Source of the DNA: Paracoccus sp. JM45
GTDB lineage: Bacteria > Pseudomonadota > Alphaproteobacteria > Rhodobacterales > Rhodobacteraceae
Assembly (NCBI RefSeq): GCF_003590715.1
Contig: NZ_QQVY01000002.1
Coordinates: forward strand, 240,460-304,459
Length of the DNA stretch: 64,000 nucleotides
Reading direction: 5' to 3'
Below, piece by piece: positions 6,428 to 36,133 of the stretch (the stretch's first letter is position 1; each line of letters starts with the position of its first letter). The notes beneath the pieces were generated by a model. It made no database searches. It was not told the origin of the DNA and saw only the letters and a list, made by a program, of their open reading frames with translations. A program made the translations under genes and the position numbers.

Positions 6428-6460
6428 TGGCTTAAAGTGCCTATCCTGCACTTTAAGCCA
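6428..6460. terminator. Bidirectional terminator at the edge of the glycan cluster
   Basis: A perfect 13-bp stem (6428-6440 with 6448-6460) and seven-base loop lie between the convergent ends of the HAD phosphatase (+) and the last glycosyltransferase (-). AT-rich sequence flanks both sides. It marks the right-to-left end of the glycan cluster. Confidence 0.75.
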
Positions 6461-6468
6461 TAAAGGAA

Positions 6469-7701
6469 TTACCCTTTAACTTTTTGAACAAGTTTGTTCA
6501 GCAGGGAATTCGCCTGTTTCTCTTGCGAGGACGGATGGTTCTGTTCGACAAAACCACGCTCCGAAGCAGCGACCATCATATCTTCCAGTTTATCAATTCG
6601 CTTTTTGATAACGATCAAAGCAAAATAGATATCCTCAAGATCAACCCGATCAGGATGTGGTTTTACATCCTCACCTTTTGGAGGGGACGTTTTCTTGTGC
6701 TTTCCGCCATGGGCAAACTTTTTGAACTGCGCCAGGTCGTTTGCTTTGGCAGCCGCAATCATTTTGTAGGTACGGCCATCTTTTGAAAAGGCCAGACCGG
6801 TTATATCCTCGGATGAATACTGTGAAATGATTGCATGAATTTCATTGAACAGCAGATGCAGATCATCTTCAGCCGCTTTTTCACTGATCCAGGCATTTTG
6901 CTTGGCCACCCATTCGATCAGCAGGGGAAGATAGGATTCCTGTTCATGTTTGACCAGCCATTGCCTGATGTTGTCATGATGCTTGAACAGTTTGAACAGG
7001 CTTGGACCGACATTGGACATGGTTTGTCCGGGACGGGCCATCCGGTGATAACACAGCACCTCGGGCAGCAGTACGACTTTTTGTGCTGACAGGACGCTTG
7101 CCCAGTGAAACGGATTGTCTTCAAAGAAATAGTCACCGACCGGAAAGCGGATCTCATTGCGTTGAATCATCTCGCGGCGATAGATCTTCCGCCATGGAAC
7201 AGGCGAGAATTCGATCATGCGTTTTCTGGACTCTGGATCCAGCGAGATCGGCGTGATCGTCTCGATCTGTTCCCAATGCTTTTTGTCATCCGATTCAACG
7301 CGTTCACCAGTCACCGCATTCTGCAGCATGAACTGGCATATCGCCAGATCCGCATCATGTTTGACAGCTGCACGATACATCTTACCGAACATTTCGGAAT
7401 CATAGACATCGTCGCCATCTGCGAAGCCGATGTAGTCCCCCGTCGCGACCTCAAGCCCTGCGTTGGCAGCGGATGCCACGCCGCCGATAGTATTTTCCTT
7501 GAACAGGATCGGTTTCACGCGATTGTCCAAATCGGCATAGCTTCTAATGATTTCTACGGTTTGGTCGGTCGATCCATCATCCACAACAATGACTTCAATC
7601 TCTCCGATCGATTGGGCCAGAATTGAATCAATCGCCTCCGAGATATAGTCCTGAACGTTATAGGAGGTCACAATTATCGAAAGCTTCGGATTCGTCGTCA
7701 T
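6469..7701 (-). CDS. Family 2 glycosyltransferase (copy A of duplicated module, second gene)
   Basis: A 410-residue protein with an N-terminal GT-A fold: LSIIVTSYNVQDYI, VVDDGSTDQT and FADGDDVYD (the DxD nucleotide-sugar/metal site near residue 97). The middle has PWRKIYRREMI and a GDYFFEDNPFHWA block, and the C-terminus is charged and helical, likely coiled coil (LEDIYFALIVIKKRIDKLED). It would transfer a sugar to a cell-surface glycan; donor and acceptor unknown. Two bases separate it from the upstream glycosyltransferase. It shares its middle motifs with the gene at 14085-15221. Confidence 0.85.
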   Translation of the reverse strand: MTTNPKLSIIVTSYNVQDYISEAIDSILAQSIGEIEVIVVDDGSTDQTVEIIRSYADLDNRVKPILFKENTIGGVASAANAGLEVATGDYIGFADGDDVYDSEMFGKMYRAAVKHDADLAICQFMLQNAVTGERVESDDKKHWEQIETITPISLDPESRKRMIEFSPVPWRKIYRREMIQRNEIRFPVGDYFFEDNPFHWASVLSAQKVVLLPEVLCYHRMARPGQTMSNVGPSLFKLFKHHDNIRQWLVKHEQESYLPLLIEWVAKQNAWISEKAAEDDLHLLFNEIHAIISQYSSEDITGLAFSKDGRTYKMIAAAKANDLAQFKKFAHGGKHKKTSPPKGEDVKPHPDRVDLEDIYFALIVIKKRIDKLEDMMVAASERGFVEQNHPSSQEKQANSLLNKLVQKVKG

Positions 7702-27496: not shown

Positions 27497-28402
27497 TCAG
27501 GATTGACCGCCCAAAAGTTGGCAAAGCCGGTCCAGTTGATCCAGATCCTTGTAGGAAATTACCAGTTCGCCACCACTTGAACCTTTATCATTAATCTGGA
27601 CATTCATTTTTAGATTGGCCGATAAGTCACCTTCCAAGGCCCAGGTATCCGCATCTTTATCGGTATTTTTGGCTGACTTACGCTGCTGATTTTTCTCGGG
27701 CTGGGACAGTTTACGTACCATTTCTTCGGTATCCCGAACCGAAAGTCCTTTTTCGATGACTTTTCGTGCCAGTTGCTGAGCATTTGGAACCGTAATCAAA
27801 GCCCGTGCATGCCCGGCACTCAATTTGCCATCCTTGACCAGATCCTGAACCTGATCAGGCAGGTTCAGCAAACGTAGCAAGTTCGCAATATGGCTGCGGC
27901 TTTTGTTCAACGCTTCTGCTAAACGTTCCTGCGTATGACCAAAACGGTCCATCAACTGCCGGAACGATGCCGCCTCTTCGATCGCATTTAGGTCCGCACG
28001 TTGAATATTCTCGATAATCGCGACTTCCAGAACCTCGGTATCTGACATCTGGCGGATAATCACCGGAAGCTCGTGCAACTGCGCCATCTGCGCTGCGCGC
28101 CAGCGACGTTCCCCCGCAACAATCTGATAAATGCCGTCATCGTTCGGATGGGGCCGAACAATCAACGGCTGAAGAACTCCACGCTGTTTGAGCGAGGCGG
28201 ATAGTTCTTGCAGCGCATCGGGGTCGAACGTACGACGGGGCTGATCCGGATTCGCAGTAATTTGTTCAATTGGAACAACGATTTGATCTTTTGAACCGCC
28301 CGTTGACGTATCTGCTGGTACAACAGCCAGATCCATATCCGCCATCAACGCTGAAAGTCCGCGACCCAAACCCCGTTTTGCTATTTTGCTGTCAGACATC
28401 AT
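27497..28402 (-). CDS. parB: Chromosome partitioning protein ParB
   Basis: A 301-residue ParB. The N-terminal RGLGRGLSALM contacts ParA. The CTP-binding core includes QPRRTFDP and the GERRWRA motif near residue 95. A helix-turn-helix follows (HTQERLAEALNKSRSHIANLLRLL), and the dimerisation domain ends at QLLGG. It loads at parS sites as a CTP-dependent sliding clamp. Three such sites lie 1.3-3.2 kb upstream in rsmG and mnmG. Overlaps parA by four bases. Confidence 0.97.
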   Translation of the reverse strand: MMSDSKIAKRGLGRGLSALMADMDLAVVPADTSTGGSKDQIVVPIEQITANPDQPRRTFDPDALQELSASLKQRGVLQPLIVRPHPNDDGIYQIVAGERRWRAAQMAQLHELPVIIRQMSDTEVLEVAIIENIQRADLNAIEEAASFRQLMDRFGHTQERLAEALNKSRSHIANLLRLLNLPDQVQDLVKDGKLSAGHARALITVPNAQQLARKVIEKGLSVRDTEEMVRKLSQPEKNQQRKSAKNTDKDADTWALEGDLSANLKMNVQINDKGSSGGELVISYKDLDQLDRLCQLLGGQS

Positions 28403-29184
28403 GCATCCTCCGTCACAAGATTAAGCCTGTCACAGAATTCCTTTGCGAACTGGCGATATGCTACGCTTCCCTTGGATTGCGGATCATAGGTCAGAACAGG
28501 TTGGGCATGGGACGGCGCTTCGGATACCCGCACATTGCGTGGGATCACGGTCGGATAAACCAAATCACCCAGAGTTTCGCGGGCATCAGCTTCCACCTGC
28601 TGAGACAGGTTGTTTCGATAGTCGGACATGGTCAGAAGAATTCCATTAATCCGCAGTGCAGGATTCGCGCCTTGCCGTACCTGTTTTACCGTACCTAAAA
28701 GCTGGGAAAGTCCTTCCAAAGCATAGAATTCAGCTTGAAGTGGGACCAGAACGCTTGTTGCAGCAACCATAGCGTTTACCGTTAGAAGTCCAAGCGCCGG
28801 CGGGCAGTCGATCAGGACAATGGTGCCAGCAGGCGCCAATGAAAGCTGTTTCGTCAGCAAGCGCGTCCGATCCGGCGTTTGCGACAGTTCAACATCTGCG
28901 GATGCCAGATCCGATGTTGCTGGCACGACACTTAGATTCTGAATATCGGTATCAACCGCAGCTTGCAGCAGACCAGCATCGCCGGTCAAAAGATCATAAA
29001 CCGTATACTCACGTTGATCTGTCGATATACCTAATCCGGTCGAAGCGTTCCCCTGAGGGTCTAGATCAACCAATATCGTAGGACGTCCGGATTGCGCCAA
29101 GGCTGCGGCAAGATTAACCGCGGTTGTGGTTTTCCCCACGCCGCCTTTCTGATTTGCGATTGCGACGATCTGCTGCTCACGCAT
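28399..29184 (-). CDS. parA: Chromosome partitioning ATPase ParA
   Basis: A 261-residue ParA/Soj with the deviant Walker A motif NQKGGVGKTTTAVNLA, DLDPQGNASTGLG and LIDCPPALGLLT. It forms ATP-dependent gradients on the nucleoid that move ParB-parS complexes and hence origins. It overlaps rsmG by eight bases, the normal order in alphaproteobacteria next to the origin. Confidence 0.97.
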   Translation of the reverse strand: MREQQIVAIANQKGGVGKTTTAVNLAAALAQSGRPTILVDLDPQGNASTGLGISTDQREYTVYDLLTGDAGLLQAAVDTDIQNLSVVPATSDLASADVELSQTPDRTRLLTKQLSLAPAGTIVLIDCPPALGLLTVNAMVAATSVLVPLQAEFYALEGLSQLLGTVKQVRQGANPALRINGILLTMSDYRNNLSQQVEADARETLGDLVYPTVIPRNVRVSEAPSHAQPVLTYDPQSKGSVAYRQFAKEFCDRLNLVTEDA

Positions 29185-29770
29185 GCGACACTCCGGATAT
29201 CTTCAAAATTGCAGCCTCTGAGTCGGTTTTACTTGGAAACTGTTCTGATTTAAACTGCCAAGTTTCTTCCGCCGCGACCAGTTCTTCTTGCCACTTTCGC
29301 CCTTTCATTAACCAAGCAATACCGTCTGATGAAAGATGCCACGAGATATAACCAAGAAGCTTGGGTAAGGCCGCAAGTGCCCGCGCAGACATATAATCCG
29401 CGTTTAGGGGGCTAATACTTTCAATACGTTGAGGGAGTATAGAAACATTTTTAAGACCAAGCTCACGTATGACAGTTCGCAGAAATTCACACTTGCGCTT
29501 ATCGCTTTCCACAAGCGTTAATTTTAGCTGCGCCTTACGAAAAGCTATTGCAATAACCAATCCGGGCAACCCACCCCCGCTGCCAATATCGACCCAATGA
29601 CCATTTGGCGTTTCCATAATCTCGGTCAGTTGAAGGCAGTCTTCAATATGACGATTGCGAAAATCTACCAAGGTCGAGGGCGCGACCAAATTAATCTTTG
29701 GGTTCCATAGGGTGACAAGGTTCACATACTGATCCAGAAGATCATGTGTTTCACGTGAAACGTTGCTCAT
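29177..29770 (-). CDS. rsmG: 16S rRNA m7G527 methyltransferase
   Basis: A 197-residue RsmG (GidB) with the SAM-binding loop [11 protein letters not shown] near residue 60 and [12 protein letters not shown]. It methylates G527 of 16S rRNA. The N-terminal codons for VSRET coincide with a parS site. Overlaps mnmG by four bases. GC in this block is visibly lower than elsewhere. Confidence 0.96.
29747..29762. promoter_or_regulatory. parS site 1
   Basis: TGTTTCACGTGAAACG, one mismatch to the 16-base consensus TGTTTCACGTGAAACA, with the 14-base palindromic core intact. It lies inside the rsmG 5' coding region about 5 kb from the proposed origin. Confidence 0.92.
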
Positions 29771-31635
29771 GCTGTTTTACGCATATGCATTTTTCCTGCA
29801 GCTATAAGAAGCGTCAAGGCAGCAGGCGTCATTCCCTCAATCTTAGCAGCATCAGCAAGTGTGTCTGGACGGGTTTCGGACAGTTTTTTTACAAGTTCGC
29901 CTGAAAGTCCACCAAGCTGAGTATAATCAAGATCGTTACTTAATCTGGTCTTTTCATTCGCTCTAATAGCAGCGGCATCCTTGCTCTGACGATCGCTATA
30001 TTGTGCATATAAAGCATCATTCCGAAGTTGATGAAGTGTTTCACGTGAAACCTCGCCAAGTTGCGGGACCAAATCGACTAGCTTATCAAATTCGATATCT
30101 ACCATTCCAAGGAGTGTAAAAACGGATCGCATTTGTCCGTCCAACCGAACTTTAAACCCAGCTTTCGACAATTCGTTTGGCGAGAACTTCATAGCGTCGA
30201 ACATAGTTCTTGACGTTAGGTATGCGTCTTGCCGTTTGCTAAATGAAGCCTCTCGCTCGGGGGTTATGCATCCGATTGAAAGACCAAGAGCTGTAAGTCG
30301 TTGATCCGCGTTATCCGCGCGTAGGCTTAACCTGAATTCTGCACGCGATGTGAACATACGATAGGGTTCTGTAACACCCTTCGAAACAAGATCATCAATC
30401 ATTACACCGATATAACTGTCTGCCCGGCTAAAAACCAAAGGTTCTTTATCCTGAGCATGTAGGGCAGCATTTAAACCGGCCGCAAGTCCCTGCCCCGCTG
30501 CTTCTTCATATCCTGTGGTCCCGTTGATCTGACCCGCCAAAAACAGACTTGAAATAGATTTGACTGACAAAGTTTTGTCCAGACTGGTCGGATCCACAAA
30601 ATCATACTCAACCGCATAGCCCGGCTGTAAAATGACCGCATTCTCCAACCCTGCGATCGAACGAACATATGCTTCTTGAACATCTGCCGGAAGCGAGGTC
30701 GAGATACCATTTGGATAGACCGTATGGTCATCTAGCCCTTCAGGCTCAAGAAATATCTGATGGGAAGTTTTGTCCGCAAATCTGACGACTTTATCCTCGA
30801 TTGATGGGCAATATCGCGGCCCACGACCGGCAATATGGCCACCGTACATCGCAGAACGGCCCAAGTTCTTCCTGATAATCTCATGAGTTTCAGAATTGGT
30901 ATGGGTAATCCCGCACGAAATCTGACGCGCTGATGGCTCGTGATTCATATACGAAAAAACTACAGGTTCTTCGTCGCCTGGCTGCATTTCAAGCCTATCC
31001 CAAGCAATAGTGCGGCCATCCAAACGAGGAGGTGTACCTGTCTTCAATCGTGAGAGTGGCAAATTGAATTTTGCCAGTGATACGGCCAGATCATTTGATG
31101 CATTATCACCCCAACGCCCGGATGGTTGGGAGACGTCGCCGATATGAATAACGCCGTTCAGGAATGTTCCAGTTGTTAAAATTGTCGCAGAAGACGTGAT
31201 TTCTGACCTATCAGTCAGTCTAACGCCGGTCACATTCGAAAAATCGCCTAGGAATTCCGATACTTCAGCAAATATCAAATCCAGCCTTGGATATGTGCTT
31301 ATTAATTTCCAAGCTTCCGCACGGTATATTGCGCGGTCCATTTGCGCCCGCGGCCCCTGCACTGCCGGACCTTTACGACGGTTTAACAAGCGGAACTGTA
31401 TACCTGCCTTATCAGCAATACGTCCCATAACGCCATCAAGTGCATCAACCTCTCGGACCAGATGACCTTTCCCAAGGCCACCAATTGCCGGGTTACATGA
31501 CAGGGTGCCAATATCTTCCTTACGCATTGTAATCAACGCAACGGAAGATCCCATACGAGCGGCTGCCGTAGCGGCCTCAAGCCCGGCATGTCCTGCACCA
31601 ATCACGATGACGTCGTAATGTTTCACGTGAAGCAA
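29767..31635 (-). CDS. mnmG: tRNA U34 carboxymethylaminomethyl modification enzyme MnmG
   Basis: A 622-residue MnmG (GidA): FAD motif [16 protein letters not shown], then TCNPAIGG-like [14 protein letters not shown] and a C-terminal tRNA-binding helical domain. With MnmE it installs the 5-carboxymethylaminomethyl group at wobble uridine 34. The start is TTG at 31635 (MLHVKHYD) or possibly the GTG three codons later; no ATG is available. A parS site overlaps the start codons and another lies near the 3' end. Confidence 0.96.
30037..30052. promoter_or_regulatory. parS site 2
   Basis: TGTTTCACGTGAAACC, one mismatch at the last base of the consensus. It lies in the 3' part of mnmG, 290 bases from site 1, where it encodes VSRET. 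Confidence 0.92.
31619..31634. promoter_or_regulatory. parS site 3
   Basis: TGTTTCACGTGAAGCA, one internal mismatch (position 14). It covers the first codons of mnmG, about 3.1 kb from the proposed origin. Confidence 0.85.
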
Positions 31636-34315: not shown

Positions 34316-34762
34316 TCAGAACTTGACGATAACCGCCAGAACGATCCCGACCATCAAAAACGTCGGTAATTCGTTCATCATCCTGTAATTCCTGCCTGAT
34401 TTCGCCTTTTGAACGGCCAAATTCCGGCGTTCACGGGCACACCACATGTGAAACCAGGTCATTCCCAAGACGCATCCGGCCTTCACCCAGGGCCAGGTCA
34501 GTGACCAATCGATGATTCCCGGCGTCATCACCAAGGTCAAACCGCTGATCCATGTCGCAACCATCGCCGGATTCATGATCAGACGCAGCAATTTGTCCTC
34601 CATGATGACGAAACTGGACGCCGGTTCCGCCGGATTCGCACCACGTTCTGCGTGATAGACGAATAATCTGGGCAAATAGAACACGCCTGCCATCCAGGAA
34701 ATGACGGACATGACGTGAAACGCCTTCACATAGGGATAGATTATCAAAAGCCAGTCGAACAT
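34316..34762 (-). CDS. hemJ: Protoporphyrinogen oxidase HemJ
   Basis: A 148-residue membrane protein with four hydrophobic segments and the HemJ/UPF0093 pattern KAFHVMSVISWMAGVFYLPRLFVYH, whose histidines are conserved and thought to bind heme. It oxidises protoporphyrinogen IX in bacteria lacking HemG/HemY. The ATG at 34762 is preferred, with GAGG five bases upstream; the longer frame to 34783 is not needed. It is the last gene before the proposed origin. Confidence 0.9.
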   Translation of the reverse strand: MFDWLLIIYPYVKAFHVMSVISWMAGVFYLPRLFVYHAERGANPAEPASSFVIMEDKLLRLIMNPAMVATWISGLTLVMTPGIIDWSLTWPWVKAGCVLGMTWFHMWCARERRNLAVQKAKSGRNYRMMNELPTFLMVGIVLAVIVKF

Positions 34763-34827
34763 GCGCACCTCTCTCCTTCTCACTTAAATAAAAGAAAAGA
34801 GAAAAGGAATGTTGTTGAAGTAGGGGC

Positions 34828-34836
34828 TGTGGATAG
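34828..34836 (-). promoter_or_regulatory. DnaA box (one mismatch)
   Basis: TGTGGATAG on the plus strand, one mismatch to the reverse complement of TTATCCACA, at the left of the proposed origin. Confidence 0.6.
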
Positions 34837-34881
34837 GAGGATTTCTGTGTTCTTCACTGGCAAATCCCCAGAATCAAAAGC

Positions 34882-34890
34882 TGTGGATAA
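34882..34890 (-). promoter_or_regulatory. DnaA box (perfect)
   Basis: TGTGGATAA, the exact reverse complement of the strong box TTATCCACA, within the AT-rich segment. Confidence 0.85.
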
Positions 34891-34946
34891 ATGTGTTGAA
34901 AATTAATCCTGTGAAAAGAAAATCTTTTGTAAACAAAGTTATCTTG

Positions 34947-34955
34947 TGTGGATAA
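34947..34955 (-). promoter_or_regulatory. DnaA box (perfect)
   Basis: A second exact TGTGGATAA, 65 bases from the first and in the same orientation, followed by AT-rich sequence. Confidence 0.85.
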
Positions 34956-35016
34956 TTTTGAGGATAATGATTTGGCGACAGATTCGCCCACAGATTCGGT
35001 GTTTTGCGAAATCAAG

Positions 35017-35034
35017 TTATGCACTTGTGGATGA
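35017..35034. promoter_or_regulatory. Two adjacent weak DnaA boxes
   Basis: TTATGCACT (35017-35025, plus) and TGTGGATGA (35026-35034, minus) abut head to head, each close to the consensus TTATNCACA. A further poorer match, CTGTCCACA, is at 35131. Confidence 0.5.
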
Positions 35035-35278
35035 CAGGGGTGTGTTCGTCCTTTGTTTCAGGGCGAAAATCAGCCACCGACAGGGCTTGACCGACTTGCC
35101 ACCAAGTGCCGGACCGATTCCCCCCGCAATCTGTCCACAGGGTTCACGGTGAATGCGTGAAGCGCTTGCGCGCCTTCACGGCCACAGGGACAAATCTTGT
35201 GTATTCTTTGATCTTTTTCCGGCGTGATTTGGGCCATAGTCTGACGGACACCATGAACCGCGAACAACAAAGTCCCCC

Positions 35279-36133
35279 ATGACCGACGATATGCCAGCCA
35301 ATCCGATCATCCATGCCCCGCTTGCGGGGGTTATCGGGATGCCGATCGCCTATTCCCAGTCACCGCGACTTCACGGACATTGGCTGTCCCGATACGGATT
35401 GGCGGGGCATTATGTGCCCATCCCTGTCATGCCGGAACATCTGGCCGAGGTTCTGCGCGTTCTGCCGCGTGCCGGTTTTGTCGGAGCGAACGTGACGATC
35501 CCCCATAAAGAGGCGGTTCTGACCCTTGCCGATACCGTCACAGACCGTGCCGCGTTAATCGGCGCGGCAAATACATTGATTTTCCGGTCCGACGGGAAGA
35601 TCCATGCCGATAACACCGATGGATACGGCTTCATTGCAAATATCCGACAGAAAGCCCCCGATTGGCAGCCCGATGCCGGCCCTGCGGCGGTGATCGGTGC
35701 CGGTGGGGCGGCGCGGGCCGTGGTTGCCTCGCTTCTGGACAGTGGCGTGAAGGAACTGCGGATCTCGAACCGGACGCGCTTGCGGGCCGAACAGATCAAG
35801 GCGGAATTCGGCGCAAGACTGGTCGTTTATGACTGGGCGCAGGTCGGCAATATGCTGGAAGGGGCGACAACCGTCGTCAATGCAACATCGCTTGGAATGA
35901 AGGGAAAACAGCCGCTGCGGGTGCCAATGGATGCGCTGTCGCCGGGCACATTGGTCACCGATCTGGTCTATATCCCGCTGATGACCCCTTTCCTGACCGA
36001 GGCCGAGGCCCGCGGATGCCGCATCGTCGATGGTCTTGGCATGTTGCTGCATCAGGCAGCCCCCGGTTTCGAACGCTGGTTCGGGCGTCGCCCCGATGTC
36101 GATGACGAAGCCCGCCGGATCATGTTGGAATGA
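35279..36133 (+). CDS. aroE: Shikimate dehydrogenase
   Basis: A 284-residue AroE: substrate domain with PIAYSQSPRLHG, NVTIPHKE (catalytic lysine) and DNTDGYGF, then an NADP-binding GAGGAARAVVASL motif. It reduces 3-dehydroshikimate to shikimate in aromatic amino-acid synthesis. First gene right of the origin, in an overlapping run with coaE and dnaQ. Confidence 0.96.
   Translation: MTDDMPANPIIHAPLAGVIGMPIAYSQSPRLHGHWLSRYGLAGHYVPIPVMPEHLAEVLRVLPRAGFVGANVTIPHKEAVLTLADTVTDRAALIGAANTLIFRSDGKIHADNTDGYGFIANIRQKAPDWQPDAGPAAVIGAGGAARAVVASLLDSGVKELRISNRTRLRAEQIKAEFGARLVVYDWAQVGNMLEGATTVVNATSLGMKGKQPLRVPMDALSPGTLVTDLVYIPLMTPFLTEAEARGCRIVDGLGMLLHQAAPGFERWFGRRPDVDDEARRIMLE

Follow-up and report, generated by a model that had tools for sequence, protein, structure and literature searches.

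The basal unwinding system (BUS) of Bacillus subtilis consists of a DnaA box, a short spacer and a series of 3′-GAT-5′ trinucleotides (DnaA-trios), the spacer averaging 4 bp and having formerly been termed GC-rich (PMC8287927, available sections). The survey published there in 2021 required at least three NAN trios; 15% of 2070 origins were without DnaA-trios, and deviant trios lacking the middle adenine were suspected by Pelliciari et al. (PMC8287927, same sections). According to the accessible part of PMC10721633, the middle adenine is bonded by Asn187 in the B. subtilis BUS structure, a middle T reduces strand opening in vitro and initiation in vivo in this species, and the trio-reading residues of DnaA are not universally conserved. 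Within the Alphaproteobacteria, the Caulobacter origin Cori sits between hemE and COG1806 (PMC1914354, in part), and for 101 Rhodobacteraceae the origins have been predicted from skew, DnaA boxes, low GC content and the proximity of parAB (PMC6699656, in part). Judged from the listings returned, literature on DnaA-trios together with Rhodobacter, Caulobacter, alphaproteobacteria or Asn187 named no trios for Rhodobacteraceae, and none was found that joined any three of oriC, hemJ, aroE and rho.

The locus described here resembles the B. subtilis BUS in its succession of box, short spacer and tandem trinucleotides in the same orientation, with a box-proximal trio that is mostly 3′-GAT-5′. Unlike the BUS, however, the box-distal trios in the family are mostly T-centred, and DnaA carries Tyr or Phe instead of Asn at position 187. 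As in Cori, DnaA boxes lie in an AT-richer gap of an alphaproteobacterial chromosome, but the flanks here are hemJ and aroE rather than hemE and COG1806, and neither the CtrA nor the IHF site that the available text of PMC1914354 describes for Cori is present in exact form. The genome under study contained no match to PF03618 (COG1806), the family found to the right of the origin in Caulobacter and Rickettsia. The same origin criteria apply here as in the Rhodobacteraceae predictions, which in the accessible portion of PMC6699656 include no trio or unwinding module.

The hemJ-aroE gap and its surroundings

The window, i.e. the whole stretch of 64,000 nucleotides analysed, corresponds to positions 240,460–304,459 of a contig of 382,780 bases, part of a Paracoccus sp. 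JM45 assembly comprising 81 contigs and 3.6 Mb. Gene direction flips at a non-coding gap of 516 bases, whose coordinates in the initial annotation were exact, with hemJ read leftward from an ATG at 34762 (a GTG at 34783 being a second in-frame option) and aroE rightward from an ATG at 35279 (Table 1). Pfam matches were obtained for the hemJ family (UPF0093), rho, aroE, coaE, an RNase_T exonuclease of the dnaQ kind, parA, parB and rsmG. These matches agree with the names rho, rsmG, parA, parB, aroE, coaE and dnaQ given beforehand. The accompanying comparison with Caulobacter does not hold for the direct flanks. No RNA family was recognised by Rfam at gathering thresholds in the 24–46 kb section of the window. 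Three parS-like sites, identified by similarity to TGTTTCACGTGAAACA, which we take to be the parS consensus, sit 3–5 kb left of the gap, and no further site was found at two mismatches in the scanned part of the contig.

Table 1 Features of the predicted origin and its surroundings in window coordinates
Feature	Position	Strand	Basis
Predicted oriC intergenic region, hemJ (-) to aroE (+)	34763..35278	.	box cluster, skew, conservation, GC
hemJ (UPF0093), left flank	34316..34762	-	ORF + Pfam
aroE, right flank	35279..36133	+	ORF + Pfam
parB and parA	27497..29184	-	ORF + Pfam
parS-like site	29747..29762	.	1 mismatch to TGTTTCACGTGAAACA
parS-like site	30037..30052	.	1 mismatch to TGTTTCACGTGAAACA
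parS-like site	31619..31634	.	1 mismatch to TGTTTCACGTGAAACA
A/G-rich tract, proposed DNA unwinding element	34786..34808	+	low GC, 70-locus alignment
Five period-3 trinucleotides ATG TTG TTG AAG TAG, proposed deviant DnaA-trios	34809..34823	+	
4-base GC-rich spacer GGGC	34824..34827	+	
DnaA box TGTGGATAG, 1 mismatch, proposed anchor of unwinding module	34828..34836	+	motif scan, 70-locus alignment
CAG AAT CAA AAG + one spacer base before 34882 box, rival unwinding site	34870..34881	+	
DnaA box TGTGGATAA, exact	34882..34890	+	motif scan
Second AT-rich stretch, 25.5% GC, part of the unwinding candidate of the initial annotation	34892..34946	+	
DnaA box TGTGGATAA, exact	34947..34955	+	motif scan
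DnaA box TGAGGATAA, 1 mismatch	34959..34967	+	motif scan
Weak box AGTGCATAA (TTATGCACT on +), 2 mismatches	35017..35025	-	
DnaA box TGTGGATGA, 1 mismatch	35026..35034	+	motif scan
Weak inverted box TGTGGACAG, 2 mismatches	35131..35139	-	CACA invariant in 14 aligned genus loci

For comparison across the family, 60 genomes were hand-picked from 295 for hemJ, of which 57 matched. Leaving out the weak matches L251–L254 and the second match L226 resulted in 53 family loci and, together with 18 genus loci (own included), in a set of 71; a further one (L222), whose upstream DNA resembles coding sequence and in which aroE could not be detected, was dropped to give the 70 loci used for alignment. Of 31 genomes, counting the one under study, 26 contained a match to hemJ, aroE lay right of the gap in 15 of 18 genus loci, and both genes occurred within one 3.4-kb locus in 66 of the 71 genus and family loci. 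Four genus or family loci (L010, L013, L014 and L223) had no detectable aroE and retained the hemJ side, which suggests that it is the right flank that undergoes rearrangement. Compared with the window, the locus of Paracoccus sediminilitoris (L190) was 99.5% identical in rho and 81.8% in hemJ.

DnaA boxes with at most one mismatch numbered 11 in the window, 5 of them inside the gap where 0.067 were expected (Poisson P about 1e-8), a cluster well beyond chance. The total of 11 itself, compared with 8.31 ± 2.79 in shuffled sequences, was reached by 20 of 100 shuffles, and the motif is therefore not enriched window-wide. Likewise, the exact box TGTGGATAA occurs in 9 copies in the 3.6 Mb assembly versus 14 for the reversed control, which makes the signal one of clustering rather than frequency. 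Two of these nine copies lie in the gap, 65 bases apart, and the same distance from the 34882 box to the next one is kept in 7 of the 18 genus loci, counting the locus under study. No other 516-base stretch of the contig held more than two boxes of the one-mismatch class (302,881 bases counted, small overlaps included, of 382,780). The initial annotation had correctly positioned both exact boxes, the one-mismatch copies at 34828 and 35026 and the TTATGCACT at 35017; a third one-mismatch copy, at 34959, had been overlooked.

A separate group of boxes was seen on the genome's own contig C12 at about 31.0–31.6 kb (L032:6007–6015, 6436–6444 and 6571–6579), where two exact boxes stand 429 bases apart and are joined, by eye, by a TGTGGATAG, within and upstream of a gene that presumably is uvrC. 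This uvrC-like gene is possibly a DnaA-regulated repair gene.

The gap contains AT-rich DNA of the kind expected for unwinding: GC content was 33.3% at 34861–34920 and 30.0% at 34921–34980, in agreement with the 30–33% noted earlier, and only 0.03% of 120-base segments (sampled every 5 bases) were as AT-rich as 34861–34980 taken together. The cumulative GC-skew minimum of the window falls at 34–36 kb, and skew pooled over stretches of the contig changes sign from -0.023 left of the gap to +0.012 right of it. Four relatives, each sampled as 20 hand-chosen, unevenly spaced 20-kb stretches from one large chromosome contig, displayed a shift of mean skew in the expected sense across the place of hemJ (permutation p = 0.0001, 0.0013, 0.034 and 0.062). 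Neither an IHF site (WATCAN5WTR) nor a CtrA site (TTAA-N7-TTAA) was found in exact form in 34701–35300, the latter occurring in 1 of 18 genus loci, and the raw count of GANTC sites in the gap was four.

Proposing an oriC at this place, as the initial annotation did, fits with the box cluster, the local skew minimum, parS and parAB next door and a position conserved family-wide. On these sequence features, 34763–35278 is almost certainly the chromosomal oriC of a Paracoccus-like bacterium from the Rhodobacteraceae. As an origin, the gap is ordinary.

The block on the hemJ side

Positions 34786–34836 form a block in which an A/G tract, the trinucleotides ATG TTG TTG AAG TAG, the spacer GGGC and the box TGTGGATAG follow one another, so that the trios read GAT GAA GTT GTT GTA from 3′ to 5′ away from the box. 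GC content at 34786–34809 was 20.8%, equalled or beaten by 0.09% of segments compared. The 4-base spacer at the 34828 box lies within the limit of 16 bp set for box-to-trio distance in a BUS; two trios with a middle adenine are in phase there, where the 2021 survey asked for at least three.

A strict trio pattern, which matched 6 of 295 genomes, the one under study among them, and none of the 295 when reversed, was too narrow for the family, hence the use of loci anchored on hemJ. Of the 70 loci, 26 had a run of at least four WWG trinucleotides within the 130 bases above hemJ. No locus had such a run on the opposite strand or in the adjoining 130 bases, and none of 200 shuffles gave more than 3 loci with one. 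In the hemJ-anchored alignment of the 70 loci, which was made without the pattern and had letters for 69 of them at the block, the four distal trios had a middle T in 88, 88, 75 and 71% of sequences, and the middle base of the box-proximal trio was A in 84% and T in 15% (69 family sequences). The third base across the five trios was G in 97, 97, 59, 88 and 94% of the same 69 sequences; with just 59% in the middle trio, the phase is least clear there. Across the 14 genus loci that could be aligned, the invariant positions include T and G of the first and second trios, G of the third, and T and G of TAG.

A block with a 4-base spacer and within two mismatches of the anchor was found in 27 of 71 loci, the others having a longer spacer or a poorer match. 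Outward from the box, the middle base in these 27 loci was A in 21, then T in 17, 17, 22 and 21, and a single locus had three A-centred trios in a row. No clear trio run was visible by eye in L198 and L221.

From the block we derived the degenerate pattern WWGWWGWWGTAGGSSCTGTGGA, in which the first and the middle base of three trios may be A or T; it is neutral between A and T in these variable trios, has the box-proximal trio fixed as TAG, and was applied to a non-random sample. At least 116 stretches of genome contigs matched; among the matches listed, 74 carried dnaA, 14 carried hemJ and 28 carried neither, with a median of 6 boxes within 500 bases in each group. Again among the matches listed, the variable trios read TAG TAG TAG in 58 of the 74 dnaA-bearing stretches, which come from several phyla, and a middle T was seen in 3/74, 3/74 and 0/74 of these stretches, in 13/14, 13/14 and 9/14 of those with hemJ, and in 5/28, 2/28 and 2/28 of those with neither gene. 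Comparison of hemJ with dnaA stretches gave Fisher p values of 6e-12, 6e-12 and 4e-9 for the listed matches, with relatedness ignored. Nine of the 14 hemJ stretches are from Paracoccus. Phase and orientation of the block are common with those of the TAG-trio places in other phyla.

The T-centred run is clear in the family only and weak across the class. After removal of 2 of 30 class loci that were cut by contig ends, a WWG run of at least four was found in 6 of 28, with 1 of 28 on the other strand and a mean of 1.0 (maximum 4) in shuffles. Searching 30 class genomes for canonical TAG trios with up to two mismatches produced matches in 25, each genome remaining below its reversed control, and every listed match had one or more mismatches.

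The initial annotation had placed the unwinding segment at 34861–34980. Opening in this AT-rich stretch, perhaps from the 34882 box with A-centred trinucleotides and with the hemJ-side run employed otherwise, would suit the 25.5% GC of 34892–34946, and the CAG AAT CAA AAG located one base before that box is the only place in the gap with at least three NAN trios. Since this NAN run is not kept, by eye, in the alignment of 14 genus loci, it is treated here as a rival site. The same loci have 2 of 55 invariant positions at 34892–34946 versus 11 of 51 at 34786–34836, and it is the hemJ-side block that has the order and orientation seen on dnaA-bearing stretches of several phyla. An AT-rich opening site at 34861–34980 is accordingly regarded as unlikely. 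Strand opening would more likely take place at the conserved hemJ-side block, at 34786–34823, and 34892–34946 is possibly a spacer or bending site.

We rejected as very improbable the idea that the block is a promoter or leader of hemJ and no part of an origin. It does lie no more than 75 bases from the hemJ start, but in class relatives outside the family the 160 bases above hemJ were free of DnaA boxes within one mismatch and of WWG runs exceeding two (8 of 8 relatives). In 4 of these 8, hemJ lies 1.4–2.8 kb from the COG1806 gene. Moreover, other phyla have the same pattern on stretches that carry dnaA and not hemJ. An origin elsewhere, for instance beside dnaA 53 kb to the left, with the gap acting as a DnaA-titration cluster, is hardly credible: skew fits are loose (free fits in the four relatives put the origin 0.06 to 0.49 Mb off hemJ) and in the vicinity of dnaA, at contig positions 215–240.5 kb, skew is close to zero or weakly positive, but the 3.5 kb around dnaA hold just two one-mismatch boxes and no exact one, and parS, box density and conservation favour the hemJ-aroE gap.

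DnaA position 187

Position 187 was located by alignment to chain 8btg_A, with B. subtilis numbering counted from the alignment. The residue at this position is Tyr in the DnaA of the genome under study, and Tyr in 29 and Phe in 1 of 30 family DnaAs (7 of the 30 being from the genus), the Asn of the BUS being found in none of them. Among the matches listed for WWGWWGWWGTAGGSSCTGTGGA, in contrast, the 74 dnaA-bearing stretches had Asn in 63 cases and Ser in 3, with 8 not aligned. Thirty further class genomes had Tyr (24), Phe (3), His (1), Asn (1) and Arg (1), and with Tyr or Phe in 27 of 30 the residue change is class-wide.

There are counter-cases, in that Asn187 is present together with one or two T-centred trios at five dnaA-bearing loci (L083, L084, L086, L113 and L165). 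The alphaproteobacterium G368 (L389) has Asn at the trio-reading position, against Tyr or Phe in 27 of 30 class genomes; matches to the TAG-trio pattern in this genome were limited to those with two mismatches, and no clean canonical trio was found.

The T-centred trios, taken together with Tyr or Phe at position 187, suggest that a deviant DnaA-trio is recognised by an altered residue. Few lineages were compared, so the correlation between base and residue could be explained by shared ancestry alone. It is therefore only tentatively proposed that in Rhodobacteraceae, and perhaps in most Alphaproteobacteria, a T-centred deviant DnaA-trio and the change from Asn187 to Tyr or Phe have arisen together for a functional reason; we would put this at somewhat below an even chance.

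A proposed opening reaction and its meaning for the family

A mechanism can be outlined from the arrangement of motifs. DnaA would bind the five boxes on the + strand and the weaker inverted boxes, and an oligomer would then load leftwards from the 34828 box across the GGGC spacer. This oligomer would engage the period-3 run on the + strand at 34809–34823, upon which the A/G tract at 34786–34808 would be opened, in the manner of the B. subtilis BUS. Tyr or Phe at position 187 would go with the middle T of the trios. The unwinding module is probably a variant form of the one already known from bacteria, and a change in the initiator would correspond to it. The explanation as a whole, an oriC with BUS-like opening leftward from the 34828 box, appears on balance to be the right one, albeit with considerable room for doubt.

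If true, the presence of T-centred trios throughout a family, along with an altered reading residue, would represent the deviant-trio case suspected in the available sections of PMC8287927, and a clean test would be possible by swapping one residue and one base. For the Rhodobacteraceae, which include laboratory strains, a candidate oriC and a candidate unwinding site are hereby given to the base.
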